Source: Natranaerobius thermophilus JW/NM-WN-LF
GTDB lineage: Bacteria; Bacillota; Natranaerobiia; Natranaerobiales; Natranaerobiaceae
DNA: 64,000 bases
NCBI RefSeq assembly: GCF_000020005.1
Contig: NC_010718.1
Location: forward strand, 2,314,001 to 2,378,000
Direction of reading: 5' to 3'
A program made the position numbers and the translations under genes. Position 1 is the stretch's first letter. Each line of letters opens with the position of its first letter. The notes under the pieces are model-generated. The model was not told the DNA's origin and ran no database searches. It saw only the letters and a program-made list of their open reading frames with translations. Below are positions 27,459 to 37,377 of the stretch, in pieces.

Positions 27459-28178
27459 TTACAAGTGCCTTTTATAAAACTCCACTGCCTTTTGATAATC
27501 CTGGGGACTGTCCAGGTCAAATAGGACCCCTGGTTTTTTGGTTGGCAGGGAGCAAACAGCCTCTGGAGGGATATTTTCCATAACCTGACGTCCTCCCCGA
27601 TCACCACTTACAGACATCAGCTGAGAAAATAAACTGTGGGCAAATAAAACAGGATTACCCCTCTTTCCCTGAAATAGCGGATAGATGATCTGGCAGTTAC
27701 AATTGCTTGAATTTTTGAATCGGGCAATCATCTGATTGACAAGTTCTGAAGGAATAAAGGGTTGGTCTCCCAGGAAAAAAATTATGGCCTGGGTAGAAGG
27801 AGATACAGATGTTATTCCTGTCTTCATGGAAGTCGATTGTCCGTGCTGATATTCCGGATTGTGTACCAGCTTTAGATTTGAACGATTACAAAAAAGGTCC
27901 TTTAATTCCCGTGATTTGTGGCCAGTGACTACAATCAGTTCATCCAAATTTGAATAACTGGCATTATCCACGGTATGTTCAATCACCGTCTTTTCTCCTA
28001 AAGGAAGTAAGAGCTTGTGGCTTTCGGGGCTACTGGGATCATTAAATTCGTTAGTAGCATTGAAATCATTGATAGCATTGAATTGAGCTTTGGATTGGGC
28101 TTTGGATTGGCTGGAATTGGAGCCATTATTCTTCATGCGAGAGGAAGTTCCTGCTGCTAATATTACTCCTGAAATCAT
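27459..28178 (-). CDS. MocA/MobA-like molybdenum cofactor nucleotidyltransferase
   Basis: About 239 residues from ATG 28178 (TTG 28196 also possible). The nucleotidyltransferase signature GVILAAGTSSRM starts at residue 4. VIEHTVDNASYSNLDELIVVTGH, the metal-binding FFLGDQPFI and GNPVLFAHSLF blocks follow. Between the LAAG..SRM motif and the KLLLPLGEKTVIEH block there is an about 30-residue repetitive insertion (SQSKAQSKAQFNAINDFNAT) not expected in the family. Family role: transfer of CMP or GMP to molybdopterin for XDH-type hydroxylases. It is in the cluster with YqeC, XdhC and YqeB, which points to selenium-dependent Mo hydroxylases. Confidence 0.85.
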   Translation of the reverse strand: MISGVILAAGTSSRMKNNGSNSSQSKAQSKAQFNAINDFNATNEFNDPSSPESHKLLLPLGEKTVIEHTVDNASYSNLDELIVVTGHKSRELKDLFCNRSNLKLVHNPEYQHGQSTSMKTGITSVSPSTQAIIFFLGDQPFIPSELVNQMIARFKNSSNCNCQIIYPLFQGKRGNPVLFAHSLFSQLMSVSGDRGGRQVMENIPPEAVCSLPTKKPGVLFDLDSPQDYQKAVEFYKRHL

Positions 28179-28251
28179 AGGGCTCACGCCTTTCAATCCT
28201 GATTTTCCTTCCTATTTTCCTTCCTATTTTCTTACTATTCCTTCCTATTCC

Positions 28252-29322
28252 TTACTCATATTTATAATCTACGTGTCTACAGCCATCCATTTTAAGGGAA
28301 CACCACAGTACATGGTGAAACCTCTCCATTGAAAGTTTCTTTGAAAACTCTTGTGATGTCAAATTACGGTCAATGTCTAATAGTTCCTGCAGCCCTTCGA
28401 CATTTTTTCCATTCTCTTCAATTTCAAAGCCCTCCTGCAGAATATCCAACTTGTTTATCAGCGGAATTATCCGGGCTGAACTTTTAACCTGGCTTCTAGC
28501 TCTATGACCAGCAGCCAAAACAATTTTCGAAAACAATTCGGAATCTACTATTGTTTCTGGAGCCAGGTCATTTTCCGGTGTTTGTTTTAATAGTTCATCG
28601 GCCAGTTCCCATCGGTGCACTACCTGATCTAGAGGTTTACCCAGGGCATCTATACCCGCCATTACTATCACCAGATCACAACTGGCAGGTAAAACTGGCT
28701 CGAAATTATTGTGAAGTTTTAAGGGCAGCCGAGCTGAACCATCTGCTTCCACAAGAATCTTTAGATCATGTTCGGAAAAGTAATCCCTGCCCCGATCTAT
28801 CCAAAAAGGGGAAATTCCCGTCACTTTATCTTTTTTCACTGCCTGTCCTGCAAAAATTTGCTTAGCACTTTGCTTTACGCTTCGTTCTACATTTTGTTCT
28901 ACACTGCGTTTTACGTTTTGCTTTGCACTGCGTTTTACACTTTGTTTTGCACTGACCTGAGCTAAGGAAGAAGGTTTGATGAATCTTTTCAGGCCTTTAT
29001 GAAAGTTTGTATATCTAGATGTAATTAGATATCCATCAAAAGCTCGGTTGTGCGGAAAAAACATCTTGGTGGTAGTAGTTAGAAGCACTGAATCCCCTTT
29101 TTTATGCAATTCACTGCCCAAACGGTATAAAAGCGATGTTTTGCCACCGCCCCCTATGACACCAATCACCCTCTCATGTTCATGTAAATCCAGGGCCGAA
29201 AGTAAATCGGTTCCGTTTTCAATTCCAGTTTTATTTTTATTTTTCCATTGAGTTTTTAAGTGATTGGCATCATTATAGATATGGCTTTTTCTTGAGCCTA
29301 CCACCGGAATCACCACCCTCAT
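28252..29322 (-). CDS. yqeC: Selenium-dependent hydroxylase accessory protein YqeC
   Basis: 356 residues, longer than the usual about 230-260. The P-loop-like GVIGGGGKTSLLYRLG starts near residue 55. LLTTTTKMFFP, ILVEADGSARLPLKLH and CDLVIVMAGIDALGKPLD are the YqeC hallmarks. Residues about 120-155 are a tandem array of (S)VKQ/NVKR/SAKQ-like units (DNA 28868-28960) inserted in the enzyme. About 45 N-terminal residues before the P-loop are also extra, so the true start may be internal. Family role: a late step in maturation of selenium-containing molybdenum hydroxylases, found with YqeB. Confidence 0.85.
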   Translation of the reverse strand: MRVVIPVVGSRKSHIYNDANHLKTQWKNKNKTGIENGTDLLSALDLHEHERVIGVIGGGGKTSLLYRLGSELHKKGDSVLLTTTTKMFFPHNRAFDGYLITSRYTNFHKGLKRFIKPSSLAQVSAKQSVKRSAKQNVKRSVEQNVERSVKQSAKQIFAGQAVKKDKVTGISPFWIDRGRDYFSEHDLKILVEADGSARLPLKLHNNFEPVLPASCDLVIVMAGIDALGKPLDQVVHRWELADELLKQTPENDLAPETIVDSELFSKIVLAAGHRARSQVKSSARIIPLINKLDILQEGFEIEENGKNVEGLQELLDIDRNLTSQEFSKKLSMERFHHVLWCSLKMDGCRHVDYKYE

Positions 29323-29425
29323 CCTATATCTTTAATCAAAGCTGTATTAAAGACTCATGGTTATGGTTATGGTTGGTTGGTTATGCCTCCTATTTGTTAC
29401 CTATTATACCTATTATTGTTATTTG

Positions 29426-30253
29426 TTATCTGTAAGGAAGCCTATTTTTGATAGAGGAAAATCCGATCAGATAGTGAAAAATAGTTAAAATGACTACAGC
29501 AATAATCAGCATTAATATACCTACAGCTATAGCATTTTCTAAGTTGCCCAGGGACATGTTTAAATAAATTGATATAGGTAATGTCTCTGTCTTCATTCTT
29601 ATAGCTCCCGCTAGCATGATAGTAGCTCCGAACTCACCCAAAGCCCTGGCCCATGCTAAAAGTAATCCAGTTAAAATCCCCTTCCATGCCAAGGGAAATG
29701 TAATTTCATAGAACACTTTTCCAGGAGAGTCACCCAGACTTTCTGCTGCTTGCTCCAATTTAGGATCAACACTCTGAAAAGCCGTTTGAAAGGATCTAAT
29801 TGCTAAAGGTGTTGCAATAAATGCCTGGGCGGTTACTACCCCCAATGAGCTGAACATAAACTCTATTCCTCTTGATTCCAAAAAACCTCCCGCTCCCTGG
29901 GATACAAGCAATACCAGGGCCAAACCACTGACCAAAGGTGGTAAAAATACGGGTAGGTATAAAAATGACTCCAAAATACCTTTCCCTGGGAAGTTTTCCC
30001 GAGCCAGAATATAGGCCGAGGGAATTCCGATTAAAAAAGACAGCAACAAGGCTGACAACGATGTAGCCAGGCTAAAGCCAATAGAAAACAGGATCTCATC
30101 ACTTACTAAAAGTGGAAAAAAGTTCCCGAGATGAAAACCACGGAATAACTGACCGTAAGTTAGCAGCAATAGACCACAGTATAGCCCAAGTATTATTGTG
30201 AATATGATCTTTATATAATTATTCCTAAAACTGATTAACCGCATATTTTTCAC
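29426..30253 (-). CDS. modB: Molybdate/tungstate ABC transporter permease, ModB type
   Basis: 275 residues with six membrane segments. The ModB-type cytoplasmic loop is clear: LEQAAESLGDSPGKVFYEITFPLAWKGILTGLLLAWARALGEFGATIMLAG (about residues 165-215). It is the third gene of an ATPase, binding protein, permease set within the Mo/Se cluster, which fits molybdate or tungstate uptake. Which of the two oxyanions it prefers cannot be told. Confidence 0.9.
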   Translation of the reverse strand: MKNMRLISFRNNYIKIIFTIILGLYCGLLLLTYGQLFRGFHLGNFFPLLVSDEILFSIGFSLATSLSALLLSFLIGIPSAYILARENFPGKGILESFLYLPVFLPPLVSGLALVLLVSQGAGGFLESRGIEFMFSSLGVVTAQAFIATPLAIRSFQTAFQSVDPKLEQAAESLGDSPGKVFYEITFPLAWKGILTGLLLAWARALGEFGATIMLAGAIRMKTETLPISIYLNMSLGNLENAIAVGILMLIIAVVILTIFHYLIGFSSIKNRLPYR

Positions 30254-30357
30254 CTACTATTTCCTCTCTATTTTTTTCCTAAATTATTTTATAAGCTTTT
30301 CAACTCCATTTTTTCACCTAGATTTTTATTGTTCATCTCTTTTTCCTAATGAATTCT

Positions 30358-31296
30358 TTAGTAACCATGTCTTTCAAAAACCTGTGACGCCTCATCAGAT
30401 ACCAAGAACTCCAAAAAAGCCTGCTTTCGCTCCAGGGCCTGATCATCTCCCTCTTCAGCTACAGCCATCCCCGTTATGGGTACTGTTCGGATCAGTTCAT
30501 TGGGATATTCTATTAAAGATAGTTCATCTTGAAAGCGAAGATAATTACTGGACCAGGTGATACCTATATCTCCAATGCCTAGACTGAGATACATGGGCAC
30601 TTGATTAGCAGTTCCCACCCGCCCCCTTAAATTCTCTTCTACATGGGAAGTTAGATCGGCATTTTCAATCAGGCGTTCACTACTGTCACTCAGGGCACTG
30701 AGATCTGGTTTTACCAGCAAAAAGCTGGGGGCATTGTCATCCTCAGGATCCAACTGTTTTAGGTCAGTTAGGGATTTTAACTGATCTCCTAGTTCATCAT
30801 TAGTTACCAAAACCGGATAATGCTCGGCCATGGTGTATTTATCCGTGGTATCATACTGGCTATTTACGGACATTTGAGCTAGTTTATCCAAAAATTGAGG
30901 ATCCCCTGGAATATAAACTCCTCCACCCGGACTTGACTGCAACTGGGACAGGAGTTCTCCACTATTACCATAGATTATTTGTATTTCATTACCTTGATCG
31001 CCCGTTAACTCTGTATGATCTACTTTGATTTGGTCCGGGTCATTAGTCTGGTTCTGCTTTTCTCGGTACTGTTCCAACAACTCAGTAACAGGAGCTTTGA
31101 CAGTAGCAGCACAGTAAATAATGAACTCCTGACCACCCTGGCTGGTTTGATTATTTCTATCTGTGGATGTTGAAGATCTTAAAAAGGAGAATGGGTCTAT
31201 CTGTTCCTGCAAAGTACAACCAAGCAATCCAACGAATAGGAGTGCTAAAACCAAAAACATAACTACCAACTTTTTATATAGCACTTTTGCCATCAC
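30358..31296 (-). CDS. modA: Molybdate/tungstate-binding lipoprotein, ModA type
   Basis: About 312 residues. A lipoprotein signal ends in LFVGLLGC (cysteine near 27), followed by a Ser/Thr/Asn-rich linker. The ModA core then begins: IIYCAATVKAPVTELLEQYREK, QIIYGNSGELLSQLQSS, VYIPGDPQFLDKL, then YPVLVTNDEL and FLEFLVSDEASQVFERHGY at the end. The early Thr/Ser residues (AATVKAP, GNSGEL) are those that bind the oxyanion in the family. Its start overlaps the ATPase gene by 23 bases. Confidence 0.88.
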   Translation of the reverse strand: MMAKVLYKKLVVMFLVLALLFVGLLGCTLQEQIDPFSFLRSSTSTDRNNQTSQGGQEFIIYCAATVKAPVTELLEQYREKQNQTNDPDQIKVDHTELTGDQGNEIQIIYGNSGELLSQLQSSPGGGVYIPGDPQFLDKLAQMSVNSQYDTTDKYTMAEHYPVLVTNDELGDQLKSLTDLKQLDPEDDNAPSFLLVKPDLSALSDSSERLIENADLTSHVEENLRGRVGTANQVPMYLSLGIGDIGITWSSNYLRFQDELSLIEYPNELIRTVPITGMAVAEEGDDQALERKQAFLEFLVSDEASQVFERHGY

Positions 31297-32002
31297 CTAC
31301 ACAACTTGCAGCATCACTTGAGGCCCAGGTTAGTTTCCCATAGTGGTAGTGACCTTGCACCAAGGTTCCTGTAACATTTTGGAAATATCTACTATCATTT
31401 TGATGGGATACTAAAATGGTCGGAATCCCAAACTCTTTAATCCAATCCTGGACAAAGGTTATCACCTGTTGGCGCAATTTTTTATCTAGGGCGTTGAATG
31501 GTTCATCTAGTAAAAGCAAGTTTGTTCCTCTCATCAGTGACCGAGCCAGGGCTACCCTCTGCTGCTCGCCACCGGATAATTTAGATGGATATCTCTCCAG
31601 TAGTGATTGGGAAATCTCTAAATTTCTGTTTATATAATCTAGTAGTTCTTGATTACTATTTTTTTGGGAATTCGCCAACCTTAATTTACTGGCTTTGGAT
31701 TTAATTCCGTATAGAATATTTTCTTTGACCGTCTTGTGAGGAAACAAACGAAAATCTTGAAAACAGTAGCCAATTCCACGCTGGGCCGGTGGTAAGTACT
31801 CTCCTGTTTGAGAGTTAAAAAAGGTGCTATTATCAATACTTATAACACCGGATTCGGGATTTTCTATACCACTGATACAATTCAGGAGGGTACTTTTACC
31901 AGAACCCGAAGGGCCTTCCAGCATGATCAAGGAGGACTGGGATTGAAAATTTACGTTTAATTGGAATTCCGGTAGTTTTTTGACTAGCTTAATATTGATC
32001 AC
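31274..32002 (-). CDS. modC: Molybdate/tungstate ABC transporter ATPase, ModC type
   Basis: 242 residues. Walker A GPSGSGKST is near 31-39, the Q-loop in GYCFQDFRLFPHKTVKENI, the signature LSGGEQQRVALARSLM and Walker B LLLLDEPFNALD. It lacks the C-terminal TOBE/MOP regulatory domain of E. coli ModC, as in short tungstate/molybdate ATPases. It overlaps the binding-protein gene. Confidence 0.9.
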   Translation of the reverse strand: MINIKLVKKLPEFQLNVNFQSQSSLIMLEGPSGSGKSTLLNCISGIENPESGVISIDNSTFFNSQTGEYLPPAQRGIGYCFQDFRLFPHKTVKENILYGIKSKASKLRLANSQKNSNQELLDYINRNLEISQSLLERYPSKLSGGEQQRVALARSLMRGTNLLLLDEPFNALDKKLRQQVITFVQDWIKEFGIPTILVSHQNDSRYFQNVTGTLVQGHYHYGKLTWASSDAASCVGDGKSAI

Positions 32003-32094
32003 GAAATCAGCTCCTTCATATCCAATCCAATTAGATTCATTAGATCCATTTAGATTTCCTTTAGATTCTTAGATTCTTTAAATCCTTAGATCCT

Positions 32095-32979
32095 TTAGAT
32101 TTTTGATCTTGACAGGGCCAGGCTAGCTTCCAGTACCCCACCGGCAACAGACCTGGCTTTATCGGAAATGGTCCAGCAGTGTTCCACATCGGCCCGGGGA
32201 TCAACATCCCCTACTTTCATGCCTTGTTTCACTTTTAGACCTTGTCTGATCATACCTCTTAATACTCCCGATACTTGGGCTCTAATGGGCTGGCCCTCCA
32301 CCAAAGCCACCTGCTCACCGGCTTCTACTTTGTCACCAATCCTAGCAAAGTTCTCTATCATTCCGGTTCCAGGAGAATACAGTACCCGCTCCCGGGTGTA
32401 ACCCGCAACTTCTCCCGGTACTCCAGTATTGGGAAGGGCTCTTCCCTGATAGACAACCCGTCCTAAATAATGGCCCCTCTTGGTCTCTACCACGGCATCC
32501 ACGTCCTGACCAGCTATATATCCAGGTCCCAGGGCAATGACTATAGGAGCATCGTCCTTAGATATGCCTGTATTCTTTTTCGCCAGGGTGGCCTCCACTA
32601 AAATCTGGGGCCGGACTGTTTCCAAACAGTTAAGCTCTGGATCAACCAACAGGGGGATCTCCCCCGCCTCCAATACCTTTGTTCTGTCTTCTGGCTTTTG
32701 AATCAAGTTGGCAGTAACCCGCTCCACCTGGGCACTTCCATCAAAGACGGCTTCGGCAAAGGCTACCGTTCTTCGCACCACAGTAGGTCTGGAAATCTCA
32801 GTCATCATTACAGGTATTCCGGCCCGAAATAATCTGTGAGCTACTCCTGTAGCCAGATCACCGGCACCTTTTATCAAAACCAAGTTATCATAAATATCGT
32901 TGGTTGGCTTACTCATGGGTGGCTCAATCATGGTTGACTCACTCATAGTTGGCTCATTTGTAGTTGGCTCACTTATCAT
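32095..32979 (-). CDS. yqeB: Selenium-dependent molybdenum hydroxylase maturation protein YqeB
   Basis: 294 residues if started at ATG 32979, which follows GGGGGAGGG and overlaps the XdhC gene by 11 bases. The core LVLIKGAGDLATGVAHRLFRAGIPVMMTEI begins after an about 28-residue N-terminal array of SEPT/NEPT/SEST/IEPP-like repeats. The rest (RRTVAFAEAVFDG, VEATLAKKNTGISK, VIALGPGYIAGQDVDAVVETKRGHYLGRV, GTGMIENFARIGDKVEAGE) matches the EF2664/YqeB family that occurs only with selenium-dependent Mo hydroxylase systems. The biochemical step is not established. Confidence 0.88.
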   Translation of the reverse strand: MISEPTTNEPTMSESTMIEPPMSKPTNDIYDNLVLIKGAGDLATGVAHRLFRAGIPVMMTEISRPTVVRRTVAFAEAVFDGSAQVERVTANLIQKPEDRTKVLEAGEIPLLVDPELNCLETVRPQILVEATLAKKNTGISKDDAPIVIALGPGYIAGQDVDAVVETKRGHYLGRVVYQGRALPNTGVPGEVAGYTRERVLYSPGTGMIENFARIGDKVEAGEQVALVEGQPIRAQVSGVLRGMIRQGLKVKQGMKVGDVDPRADVEHCWTISDKARSVAGGVLEASLALSRSKI

Positions 32980-33766
32980 TTCGGCCCTCCCCCTTATATC
33001 TGACCTTTTGAATCTCGGCAATAATGCTGACAGCAATCTCCGGAGGAGTATTCCCACCTATATCAAGGCCTATAGGTGCGTAGATCCTATCAATCTGTTC
33101 CTGACTGTAACCCTTATCCTTTAAACTGTTCACCACTTCTCTCACCTTATTTTTACTGCCAATCATGCCAATATAGGCCGCCTGAGAATCTAAAACCGTT
33201 TCCAGGGCTTTTTGATCGTGGGCATGTCCTCGAGTCACAATTACAATGTAAGTGTTTGGCCCTATGGAAAACTCCAATAGAGTTTCTTCAATTTCTCCGG
33301 AATATATATCATGGGCTCCGGGAAAATTTTCTCGAGAGGCAAATTCCGCCCGATCGTCCATTACAGTGATCTGATAATCCAAGTTCTGAGCCAGCTTAGC
33401 CACTTCCTGGGAAATATGACCTGCCCCTACTAGTACCAGTTCGGGAGATGTCAACATTGGTTCTACGAAAATACTGGCATTACCACCACAAACCATTCCC
33501 AATTCTGAAGCCTCTCCTTTGCTCAAACTATAGTCCAAAAATTTAGGTTGATTAGTTTGGATGCAATTAAGACCTTCTTCTATTGTCCTGGCCTCTAGAG
33601 CACCCCCGCCTACAGTACCTGCAATGCTGCCATCTTCATAAACCAGCATTTTAGCTCCTTCTCTAGCAGGACTGGAACCAGATGATTTTACTACTGTTGC
33701 TACTGCACACGGAGTTTTCTCCTTAAGTGCATCGATCACTAGTTGGTAAAACTCTCGATTATTCAT
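32969..33766 (-). CDS. XdhC/CoxF-family Mo-enzyme maturation factor
   Basis: 265 residues from ATG 33766, 7-8 bases after GGGGAG. The N-terminal XdhC/CoxI domain has VKSSGSSPAREGAKMLVYEDGSIAGTVGGGALE. The C-terminal Rossmann domain has LVLVGAGHISQEVAKLAQNL, VIVTRGHAHDQKALETVL and YIGMIGSKNKV, and the end APIGLDIGGNTPPEIAVSIIAEI is the family C-terminal motif. Family role: binding Mo cofactor and adding the terminal sulfur (or, in Se systems, guiding selenium) before insertion into XDH-type enzymes. Confidence 0.92.
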   Translation of the reverse strand: MNNREFYQLVIDALKEKTPCAVATVVKSSGSSPAREGAKMLVYEDGSIAGTVGGGALEARTIEEGLNCIQTNQPKFLDYSLSKGEASELGMVCGGNASIFVEPMLTSPELVLVGAGHISQEVAKLAQNLDYQITVMDDRAEFASRENFPGAHDIYSGEIEETLLEFSIGPNTYIVIVTRGHAHDQKALETVLDSQAAYIGMIGSKNKVREVVNSLKDKGYSQEQIDRIYAPIGLDIGGNTPPEIAVSIIAEIQKVRYKGEGRNDK

Positions 33767-33768
33767 AT

Positions 33769-34998
33769 TTATACACTCCCCTTTCCAAATTGACAGTTGG
33801 GATACTTGCATTGTTCACACTGAAGACAGAGACCGCCATGACCAAGAGCGGCGATTTCCTCTGAACTAACCCGTTCCCCTGCCAACAACCTGGGAAAAAT
33901 TAAATCGAAAACGGTAGTTTGAAAGAACATGCCACAGGCAGGTAGGCCTACTACGGGAATTTCTCTGGGAACTTCCCTGGGATTTTCCCTTGGATTTTCC
34001 CTGGGATTCTCCCTGAAGTTAACTTTATCAGCTCCGACTTCTTTCCTGTCGTGACTTGGATTAGCTGGATCTTTTGCATCACCTGAATTAGATACATCAA
34101 ATGAATCCTTTGCCTTTGGTCTGTTTTCTCCTAGTTTGGCCTCTTTCGCCTGATTCCCAGGATGATAAGCCATCAAAAACATAGCACCTGGAAGCACGGG
34201 GGCTCCATAACTGATAGTTTGGGCACCACTCATGCGAATCCCCTTGGGAGTAACATCGTCGGGATCAACGGACATTCCCCCTGTAACCACTACTAAATCG
34301 ACCTCCTGATCAATCAAGGCCTGAATATTAGTACTGATTTCACAAGGATCGTCAGGGGCGTAGCAAACCCGAGGATCTGTCAAACCATGCTCTCTGGCTT
34401 TTTCTTTCAGTACGGGATAGAAGGCATCTTCTACCCGCCCCTGATAAACTTCCTGACCTGTTACCAAAACACCCATCTCCAATTTTTCAAAGGGTTTTAC
34501 TGAAATCACAGGGCCCTCTTCTCGGCAAATCTCTTCTACTTCTTGGACTACCTGTTCTGAAACTACCAGGGGGATCACCCTGGTACCGGCAAGTTTTCCA
34601 TCCTCTTTTACCGGAGTATTATTGTGTAATGAAGCCAAAATCACTTTATCCAAAGCATTAATCCGAGTTAAAGAAGATACATTTACTTTCAATAATCCGG
34701 GGACTTCAGCCAATAGATCTACCTTCCCTTCCCCCGGACCCTTGAAGGCAATCCCGTGACCGCTAACAGCTTGGGCAATGCGGGTTCCGGCCTCGTCTTC
34801 ATGAACCTCTCCGTCTTCTAATTTCATTGAATAGATATGTTCTTTTCCTAAAGAAAGTAATACCGGAATATCCTGTTCGGTAATGACATGTCCCTTTTTA
34901 AATTTAGCTCCCTTGAATTCACCAGGTTTGATTCCTGTTATATCATGGGGAATCACCATACCAACAGCTTCTCGAGTTTTTACATACTCGTATTTCAT
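33769..34998 (-). CDS. MoeA/MogA-type molybdopterin-binding protein
   Basis: 409 residues. The C-terminal half has the MoCF/MogA domain: EMGVLVTGQEVYQGRV, DLVVVTGGMSVDPDDVTPKGI, then APVLPGAMFLMAYHPG and, after a break, VVGLPACGMFFQTTVFDLIFPRLLAGE. The break is an about 65-residue low-complexity insertion (about 282-347) ending in repeated ENPR units (DNA 33955-34020) inside a normally continuous stretch. The tail CLQCEQCKYPNCQFGKG is Cys-rich, as in this subfamily. It is the first gene of the Mo/Se operon and ends 2 bases before the XdhC start. Confidence 0.88.
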   Translation of the reverse strand: MKYEYVKTREAVGMVIPHDITGIKPGEFKGAKFKKGHVITEQDIPVLLSLGKEHIYSMKLEDGEVHEDEAGTRIAQAVSGHGIAFKGPGEGKVDLLAEVPGLLKVNVSSLTRINALDKVILASLHNNTPVKEDGKLAGTRVIPLVVSEQVVQEVEEICREEGPVISVKPFEKLEMGVLVTGQEVYQGRVEDAFYPVLKEKAREHGLTDPRVCYAPDDPCEISTNIQALIDQEVDLVVVTGGMSVDPDDVTPKGIRMSGAQTISYGAPVLPGAMFLMAYHPGNQAKEAKLGENRPKAKDSFDVSNSGDAKDPANPSHDRKEVGADKVNFRENPRENPRENPREVPREIPVVGLPACGMFFQTTVFDLIFPRLLAGERVSSEEIAALGHGGLCLQCEQCKYPNCQFGKGSV

Positions 34999-35163: not shown

Positions 35164-35206
35164 ATAAAAAAAGCACAACCAGGGTTTAATATACCCAGTT
35201 GTGCTT
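35164..35206 (-). terminator. Terminator of the selenoprotein-candidate gene
   Basis: On the minus strand AAGCACAAC (35206-35198) pairs with GTTGTGCTT (35179-35171), with GGGT/ACCC continuing inside and TTTTTTT after. It lies 15 bases past the stop of the small gene, so that gene ends a transcript. Confidence 0.92.
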
Positions 35207-35221
35207 GATACTCTATATATT

Positions 35222-35434
35222 CTATTTGTCTTGATTGCGGGCGGCAAATTCTAACACCAGGGAAGCAATCAATAATCCGACTCCGAGCCATAACATGGCA
35301 CTGACCCCAGGAGGGGTAGCCGGTCAAACACCTGGTGGTAAGCTTCTATTTAGTAAATATAATCGCCCCAAGGATATCGCCACTATCACAACTGATACCC
35401 AAAAGACAATATTGCTGACAAGCTTTAAATTCAT
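35222..35434 (-). CDS. Candidate selenoprotein: small two-TM membrane protein with in-frame TGA
   Basis: The minus-strand frame runs from ATG 35434 (AGAGGGTG 6 bases upstream) to TAG 35222, 70 codons, with one in-frame TGA at codon 37 (35326-35324). Before it are a helix (SNIVFWVSVVIVAISLGRLY) and the segment LNRSLPPGV. After it come PATPPGVSAM and a second helix (WLGVGLLIASLVLEFAA). If TGA is Sec, the site reads LPPGV-U-P. A hairpin GCCAT-GTT-ATGGC lies 25-37 bases after the TGA (35299-35287). It has G-U at the start of its loop, the placement and loop rule of bacterial SECIS elements. A terminator follows the stop. The Mo/Se maturation cluster is adjacent. The function is unknown. The alternative is a pseudogene with a nonsense change. 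Confidence 0.7.
35287..35299 (-). promoter_or_regulatory. bSECIS-like hairpin
   Basis: Stem GCCAT/ATGGC (5 bp) with loop GTT, starting 25 bases after the in-frame TGA. A second small hairpin (ACCCC-TCCT-GGGGT) lies between TGA and this one. Bacterial SECIS elements usually have a G in the first two loop positions within about 16-37 bases of the TGA; this loop G is at +30. Confidence 0.55.
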
Positions 35435-35569
35435 TTCCAACACCCTCTAGTAAGATTAGGCTGATAGTAAGATTAGGATGATTAGATTGATCAGGTTGAA
35501 CAGGCCAGGCGATTAGAAACTAATCAATGAGCAATGATCAAGCCGATCAGTATCTAAAAACCTATTAAC

Positions 35570-36523
35570 TTAGCTTTGCTTAAATTTAATCACGTTTTTG
35601 GACTGTTCCACAATATCTTGAGAAGTCAATCCGTATTTATCCATTAGATCTTCGGCTTTTCCGCTTTCACCAAAGGTATCGTTCACAGCTACTTTTCGCA
35701 GGGGAACAGGACACTTTTCAGTTAAGACAGATGCCACGGCCTCACCCAGGCCACCAAACATATTATGTTCTTCAGCAGTTACTACGGCTCCTGTTTTCTT
35801 GGCACTATCAATGATCAACTGTTTATCAATTGGCTTGACAGAGTACATATCCAGAACCTCTGCCGAAATCCCCTGTTCTTTCAGTTCCTCAGCAGCTTTA
35901 TTAGCTCGTTCTACCATGTGACCACAGGCAACTATAGTGACATCTTCACCCTTTTTCAACAGCTTTCCTTGGCCAATGGTAAACTGTTCTCCTTCTTCGT
36001 AAATCACAGGTACTCCCGGTCTTCCCAATCTGATATAACAAGGGCCTTTAAAGCTGGCCGCTTCTTTCACCAAAGCTCTGGCAGAAGTAGCATCAGCAGG
36101 CACCATGACTTTCATATTGGGAAGAGCTCGCATCAAGGCCATATCTTCTAGCATTTGATGGGAAGCCCCGTCTTCTCCTACAGTTAAGCCACAATGGGTG
36201 GCGGCAATTTTTACATTTAATTTGGGATAACAGATGGAGTTTCGCACCTGATCATAAGCTCTACCAGTAGCAAATATAGCAAAGGTACTAGCAAACACCG
36301 TTTTACCTGTAGTAGCAAAACCAGCTGCAGTCCCCATGAGATCAGCTTCCGAAATTCCCACATTGAAAAATCGCTCTGGGAATTCCTTTTGAAAACCTGC
36401 AGTCTTAGTTGATTTAGACAGGTCGGCATCTAAAACCACTATATCTGAACGCTCTTGACCTAGTTCGATTAGCGTCTCACCATAGGCCTTTCTGGTAGGT
36501 ATTTTTTCGCCGATATTTGCCAT
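35570..36523 (-). CDS. Transketolase, C-terminal subunit
   Basis: 317 residues. It contains the pyrimidine-binding domain of transketolase (VVLDADLSKSTKTAGF, FFNVGISEADLMGTAAGFATTGKTVF, AATHCGLTVGEDGASHQMLEDMALMR) and the transketolase C domain (VDMYSVKP-like LDMYSVKPIDKQLI and VTAEEHNMFGGLGEAVASVL). The catalytic glutamate is in GISEADL. The split two-gene form, with the N subunit directly upstream (TAATG overlap at 36523), is common in Firmicutes and archaea. It moves two-carbon units in the pentose phosphate pathway. Confidence 0.95.
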   Translation of the reverse strand: MANIGEKIPTRKAYGETLIELGQERSDIVVLDADLSKSTKTAGFQKEFPERFFNVGISEADLMGTAAGFATTGKTVFASTFAIFATGRAYDQVRNSICYPKLNVKIAATHCGLTVGEDGASHQMLEDMALMRALPNMKVMVPADATSARALVKEAASFKGPCYIRLGRPGVPVIYEEGEQFTIGQGKLLKKGEDVTIVACGHMVERANKAAEELKEQGISAEVLDMYSVKPIDKQLIIDSAKKTGAVVTAEEHNMFGGLGEAVASVLTEKCPVPLRKVAVNDTFGESGKAEDLMDKYGLTSQDIVEQSKNVIKFKQS

Positions 36524-37377
36524 TACTCTTCCCCCCTTGTGCCTGCTAGGCCTTGTTCAAGTTCTTCTAATGCCTGCTCTAGTTCCTCGTCTCCTGGCGC
36601 CTTACCGTGCCAGTCAACTACATTTTCCATGTATGAAACTCCTTTGCCTTTAACAGTATCTGCCACGATCATTACAGGTTGATCTTTAACTCCCTTGGCT
36701 TCTTCGATAGCTGCATTAAACTTTTCCAGATCATGACCATCGGTCTCAATAACATACCAGCCAAAGGCTCGCCATTTATCGGAAACCGGGCCAGGATCCA
36801 TAATGTCTTCAACTTTACCGTCGATTTGCAGGCCATTGTAATCCAAAATGCCAATCAAATTATCGATCTTGTAATGAGAAGCTGTCATGGCCGCTTCCCA
36901 AATTTGACCTTCCTGGATCTCACCATCACCCAAAATGCAGTAAACATTGTAGTCTCGACCGTCCATCTTGGCAGCCAGGGCCATACCATTAGCTGCTGAC
37001 AGGCCTTGACCCAAAGATCCAGTTGTCATCTCGATACCCGGTGTACCTTTTCTATCGGGATGACCTTGCAGCCTGGAATTAATGTCTCTCAAGGTTTGTA
37101 ATTCATCTAAGGGAAAGAAACCCTTTAAAGCCAATACAGAATAAAGGCCGGGCACTCCATGGCCCTTACTCAGTACCAATCTGTCTCTATCGGGATCTTC
37201 TCCGTTTTCAGGGTCTATATTCATATGCTTAAAATAAAGGGAAGATAATATATCAGCCATGGACAGGGAACCGCCCGGATGGCCTGATTCTGCTTTATTA
37301 AGCATCTTTAAAGTTTCTACCCTGATTTTATACGCCATTTCACTGAGATAACTTTTTTCTTTAGCCGTGATGGCCAT
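36523..37377 (-). CDS. Transketolase, N-terminal subunit
   Basis: 284 residues with the thiamine diphosphate motif GDGEIQEGQIWEAAMTASHYKIDNLIGILDYNGLQ (about 150-183). SGHPGGSLSMADILSSLYF is at the start and LSKGHGVPGLYSVLALKGFF near 68. It forms the active enzyme with the C subunit encoded next. Confidence 0.95.
   Translation of the reverse strand: MAITAKEKSYLSEMAYKIRVETLKMLNKAESGHPGGSLSMADILSSLYFKHMNIDPENGEDPDRDRLVLSKGHGVPGLYSVLALKGFFPLDELQTLRDINSRLQGHPDRKGTPGIEMTTGSLGQGLSAANGMALAAKMDGRDYNVYCILGDGEIQEGQIWEAAMTASHYKIDNLIGILDYNGLQIDGKVEDIMDPGPVSDKWRAFGWYVIETDGHDLEKFNAAIEEAKGVKDQPVMIVADTVKGKGVSYMENVVDWHGKAPGDEELEQALEELEQGLAGTRGEE

Follow-up and report, generated by a model that had tools for sequence, protein, structure and literature searches.

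A probable selenocysteine-containing membrane protein encoded downstream of transketolase in Natranaerobius thermophilus and two other genera

The window analysed here is a stretch of 64,000 nucleotides from the 3.19-Mb, three-contig genome of Natranaerobius thermophilus (G000). A small gene on the minus strand at 35222..35434 had been put forward, in a preliminary description made from the window alone, as a candidate selenoprotein gene. Its frame runs from ATG 35434 to a TAG stop codon at 35224-35222 and contains a single in-frame TGA as codon 37 (35324..35326, minus strand), and both the sequence and its translation agreed with that description. GAGGGTG was found upstream of the ATG, where a ribosome site had been claimed. 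With the TGA read as selenocysteine (Sec, U), the predicted product has 70 residues: MNLKLVSNIVFWVSVVIVAISLGRLYLLNRSLPPGVUPATPPGVSAMLWLGVGLLIASLVLEFAARNQDK. The TGA sits between two hydrophobic segments in the same frame. The first predicted membrane helix covers about residues 5-23 (35366..35422, minus strand; Kyte-Doolittle mean 2.3 over 19 residues) and the second about residues 43-61 (35252..35308, minus strand; Kyte-Doolittle mean 2.19 over 19 residues); the structure model presented below supports both, as had been proposed. An intrinsic terminator was located 15 bases past the stop codon (35172..35206, minus strand), where a T run comes after a fold of -19 kcal/mol (z = -5.9); it is as strong as the earlier description had it.

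Upstream of the small gene, on the same strand, lie the two halves of a split transketolase, the C-terminal subunit at 35570..36523 (Pfam and NCBIfam) and the N-terminal subunit at 36523..37377 (Pfam). The C-terminal subunit is the upstream neighbour in all three genomes compared in this work. On the other side, at 27459-34998 of the minus strand, NCBIfam identified a selenium-dependent molybdenum hydroxylase pathway cluster, which contains a MocA/YgfJ-like cytidylyltransferase, YqeC, YqeB, XdhC, a molybdopterin-binding protein and transporter parts, the last judged by eye from ORFs. YqeB and YqeC, both of which had been recognised before, are selenium-dependent molybdenum cofactor proteins.

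Homologs were sought in the class, which was represented by three genomes: N. thermophilus, a member of the same family but another genus (G001), and a member of the same order but another family (G002). In both of the latter a homolog of the N. thermophilus gene follows immediately after the split transketolase. The G001 homolog was about 51-52% identical to the N. thermophilus protein in a protein search and has one in-frame TGA. The G002 homolog, of 35% identity, was missed by similarity alone and was found by inspecting the region downstream of transketolase; its product would be MNSKIWKYLSNISLVLAFAIFIGNFARYFLDFMRTPSGVUPMPIDRAWIWLAVILFALFFVFDYIKDKTYKKELEENEADEGDK. The three-member alignment has 16 invariant columns. 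The TGA occupies the identical column in all three members, inside an invariant P-x-G-V-U-P motif, so that the homolog search proposed at the outset returned UGA at the aligned site, at the same locus, in two other genera. The codons for V-U-P are GTT-TGA-CCG, GTA-TGA-CCA and GTA-TGA-CCG: the Val and Pro codons beside the TGA vary synonymously, and the TGA is never replaced by TAA or TAG. The stop codon is TAG in every member. Cysteine is absent from all three proteins.

The sequences on either side of the TGA were compared between N. thermophilus and G001. Over the 28 codons after the TGA, 18 of the 32 nucleotide differences fall in third positions, with 11 synonymous and 11 nonsynonymous codons. 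The BLOSUM score of this region is 93 in frame but falls to -6 and 32 when the other two frames are read, while randomly placed substitutions gave 29.8 +/- 12.8 and reached 93 in none of 20000 trials. The 34 codons before the TGA scored 79 (16.4 +/- 14.0 for random substitutions), a similar degree of conservation. The in-frame score and the third-position pattern together indicate that the region past the TGA is protein-coding in the same frame as the region before it.

A rival reading is that two single-helix peptides are made, the first ORF ending at the UGA and the second reinitiating at a downstream ATG (Met47). An in-frame ATG (in AMLW) with a G-run upstream of it is indeed present in N. 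thermophilus and G001, and an ATGA overlap occurs at the TGA in G001 and G002. However, the linker between the TGA and Met47 is itself conserved in frame (P..P.GV.A), with third positions taking 6 of its 11 differences, and G002 lacks an ATG where Met47 stands. The ATGA overlap is missing in N. thermophilus and the frame that it opens is not conserved, which led us to reject the idea of a second frame entered through such an overlap of start and stop. We regard reinitiation as quite unlikely.

The genes for Sec insertion were examined in the three genomes. selA, selB, selD and tRNA-Sec all scored above cut-offs in each of them, so that the four sel genes for which a genome check had been suggested are present in N. 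thermophilus. SelB gave 404.8, 381.6 and 376.6 bits (cut-off 242) and tRNA-Sec 74.8, 71.4 and 70.3 bits (gathering score 47), with the anticodon TCA assigned by ARAGORN. In each genome selD adjoins selB and has one in-frame TGA itself; therefore, UGA is very probably decoded as Sec elsewhere in these cells. The selD genes carry SECIS-like hairpins with a 3-nt loop, GUC in G001 (L171), GGA in G002 (L172) and GGC in N. thermophilus (L173), which starts 17 nt past the UGA. GrdB contains Sec in many other bacteria. Full-length members of the GrdB family (PF07355) were found in N. thermophilus (L180) and G001 (L179 and L182), with no in-frame stop within the match, and G002 gave a partial match only.

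A hairpin 25-37 bases past the TGA had been described as in keeping with the loop-G and distance rules of bacterial SECIS elements, and GCCAT-GTT-ATGGC was found at that place (35287..35299, minus strand). In the bSECIS model the loop has 3-9 nt with a G in its first two positions, the stem has 4-16 bp, the spacing is 16-37 nt from the UGA, and the energy is -7.5 kcal/mol or lower (PMC13188914). The candidate of N. thermophilus has a GUU loop, a 5 bp stem and a spacing of 29 nt; that of G001 has the same loop and spacing with a 7 bp stem; and that of G002 has the loop UGGAUUU, a 6 bp stem and a spacing of 21 nt. All three thus lie within the loop, stem and spacing ranges of the model. Their energies with short flanks were -11.2 (G002), -7.8 (G001) and -6.3 kcal/mol (N. 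thermophilus), the limit being -7.5; in N. thermophilus the 13-nt hairpin alone gave -4.0 and the whole folded region -21 kcal/mol. Local fold z-scores were unremarkable (-1.0 to -1.6). A hairpin as good as that of N. thermophilus was found at 5.2% of the TGA triplets of the window and in 20% of shuffles, so on its own it is no better than chance: the loop G and the distance stood as described, but the element is weaker evidence than had been implied. The corresponding values were 2% and 4% for G001, and about 0.5% of the TGA triplets and 0 of 1000 shuffles for G002. The GUU loop shared by N. thermophilus and G001 is similar to the 3-nt G[G/U]N loops of selD in these genomes. The 3′ arm GGCUC is common to all three hairpins and also codes for the conserved Trp-Leu, and no compensatory double change was seen in the stems of any pair of the three members. 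It is the conservation, in two other genera, of the TGA and of the reading frame past it that exceeds chance, not the hairpin alone; the candidate SECIS elements are supportive of Sec, not decisive.

Alternatively, a near-cognate tRNA could read the UGA (as Trp, for instance), selenium playing no part. Readthrough of this kind would be expected to conserve the UGA and the frame beyond it equally well, and the weak local SECIS of N. thermophilus fits it. Against it stand the complete Sec machinery, the UGA in selD and the SECIS-like hairpins of three genomes, and no member has TGG or any other sense codon at the site. Near-cognate decoding is highly improbable on this evidence. A chance ORF or a sequencing error, with the TGA ending a short peptide or a noncoding transcript tail, would suit a short gene without a database family but is hardly credible, given that two other genera have independent homologs in which the TGA is the same and conservation is specific to the frame. 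From the sequence comparison and the selenium machinery we conclude that the in-frame UGA is highly likely to encode selenocysteine, and the UGA-containing homologs at the same locus and the presence of selA, selB, selC and selD support the reading first given to this gene. SelB and tRNA-Sec would then decode codon 37 with the use of the hairpin just downstream.

The small gene resembles other bacterial selenoprotein genes, which depend on SelB, tRNA-Sec and a bSECIS, in its in-frame UGA, its UGA-containing orthologs, the selABCD set of the genome and a downstream hairpin whose small loop contains a G and lies at 16-37 nt. The Sec form of SelD in the same three genomes likewise has an in-frame UGA and a hairpin with a small G-containing loop. 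SelD is an unrelated enzyme, however, and its loop lies 17 nt from the UGA rather than 29 or 21 nt as in the small gene.

Sequence searches of Pfam, NCBIfam, PHROGs and the PDB gave no credible family for the three members, a family match being one above the curated cut-off or, for PHROGs, which has none, one with a clear E-value. Profile matches were weak and each was confined to a single member; the best, to 7TMR-DISM_7TM (3.4e-5, one member), was judged a hydrophobicity match. One-, two- and three-member profiles searched against 398 genomes of the phylum returned only the three class members and noise near 18 bits, which was inspected match by match and rejected; the G002 member is invisible to the two-member profile, and proteins this short are easily missed. 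No homolog was found in genome contigs (one protein, then the two-member alignment), viral contigs (three-member alignment) or plasmids (one protein). A search of 378 genomes for the pattern P-x-G-V-[C/U/W]-P, which reached only part of what it was designed to cover, fetched unrelated matches. No homolog was detected downstream of further transketolase genes and 40 additional ones, a few of these loci being truncated by the end of a contig or lacking the stretch immediately after the gene. A Cys homolog was found neither in the 398 genomes of the phylum, nor in the regions downstream of about 68 transketolase genes, nor in the genome-contig scans. A literature search combining the genus with selenoproteins brought up nothing relevant. 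Our best reading of these comparisons is that the three proteins belong to a new bacterial family of small membrane selenoproteins which is, so far, restricted to this clade.

An AlphaFold2 model (mean pLDDT 76), for which all three sequences were used, comprises a helix at residues 3-31, a loop at 32-43 holding the Sec and a helix at 44-68. Helix hairpins of this kind weakly resemble many structures, and a Foldseek comparison of the model with the PDB gave nothing at E <= 0.001. The product is accordingly modelled as an alpha-helical membrane hairpin with a predicted single selenol in the short Pro-x-Gly-Val-Sec-Pro loop at the membrane surface; the charge distribution gives no clear call on which side this loop faces. 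An internal selenenylsulfide is impossible because the chain has no Cys. At the membrane surface the loop Sec might react with an oxidised substrate such as a peroxide or a disulfide, an external thiol then restoring it, or two hairpins might be paired through Se-Se; we offer either chemistry tentatively, as a possibility that we rate below even. It is similarly conceivable, if somewhat doubtful, that a cysteine form of the family does not exist, that Natranaerobiia-type anaerobes are its only hosts, and that one selenol in the hairpin loop, with no partner Cys, performs a chemistry in which Cys could not replace Sec.

Larger transporter proteins such as the YeeE/YedE transporter and SaoP offer a parallel in one respect. 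Like the predicted hairpin, they place Sec in an integral membrane protein (PMC13188914), but NCBIfam and Pfam revealed no sequence relation to them. In the 2026 inventory, with its 119 families and subfamilies, none has P-x-G-V-U-P in a two-helix hairpin; many of its families have CxxU, UxxC or a thioredoxin fold, in contrast to the new family, which is without any Cys (PMC13188914). The two-helix membrane hairpin would join that inventory. The conditions in which N. thermophilus lives combine high pH with high salt and high temperature (PMC2764116), and the question is raised why a lone selenol should be placed at the membrane surface in such an organism.

A wider point concerns the way in which such genes are detected. 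The usual route to a selenoprotein gene is to pair a UGA with a Cys homolog, and the recent finder deep-Sep may, by its own statement, miss families that have none (PMC12013277). A short, Cys-free, membrane-embedded family therefore falls into a blind spot of current annotation.

The conserved position directly behind the transketolase C-terminal subunit suggests that the small gene is co-transcribed with transketolase, and in Natranaerobius-type anaerobes it is probably carried on the transketolase transcript. We would not read a shared pathway with transketolase from this position. In G001 the homolog is followed not by the molybdenum cluster but by a protein carrying a histidine-kinase ATPase domain (L002:19-1389), so that synteny is conserved only on the transketolase side. 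The two genomes differ also in the spacer that separates the small gene from transketolase: in N. thermophilus it is filled at 35440-35530 of the window by a short repeat (CTAATC / CTAATCTTACTA), while in G001 the homolog starts only 22 nt past the stop codon of the transketolase C-subunit.
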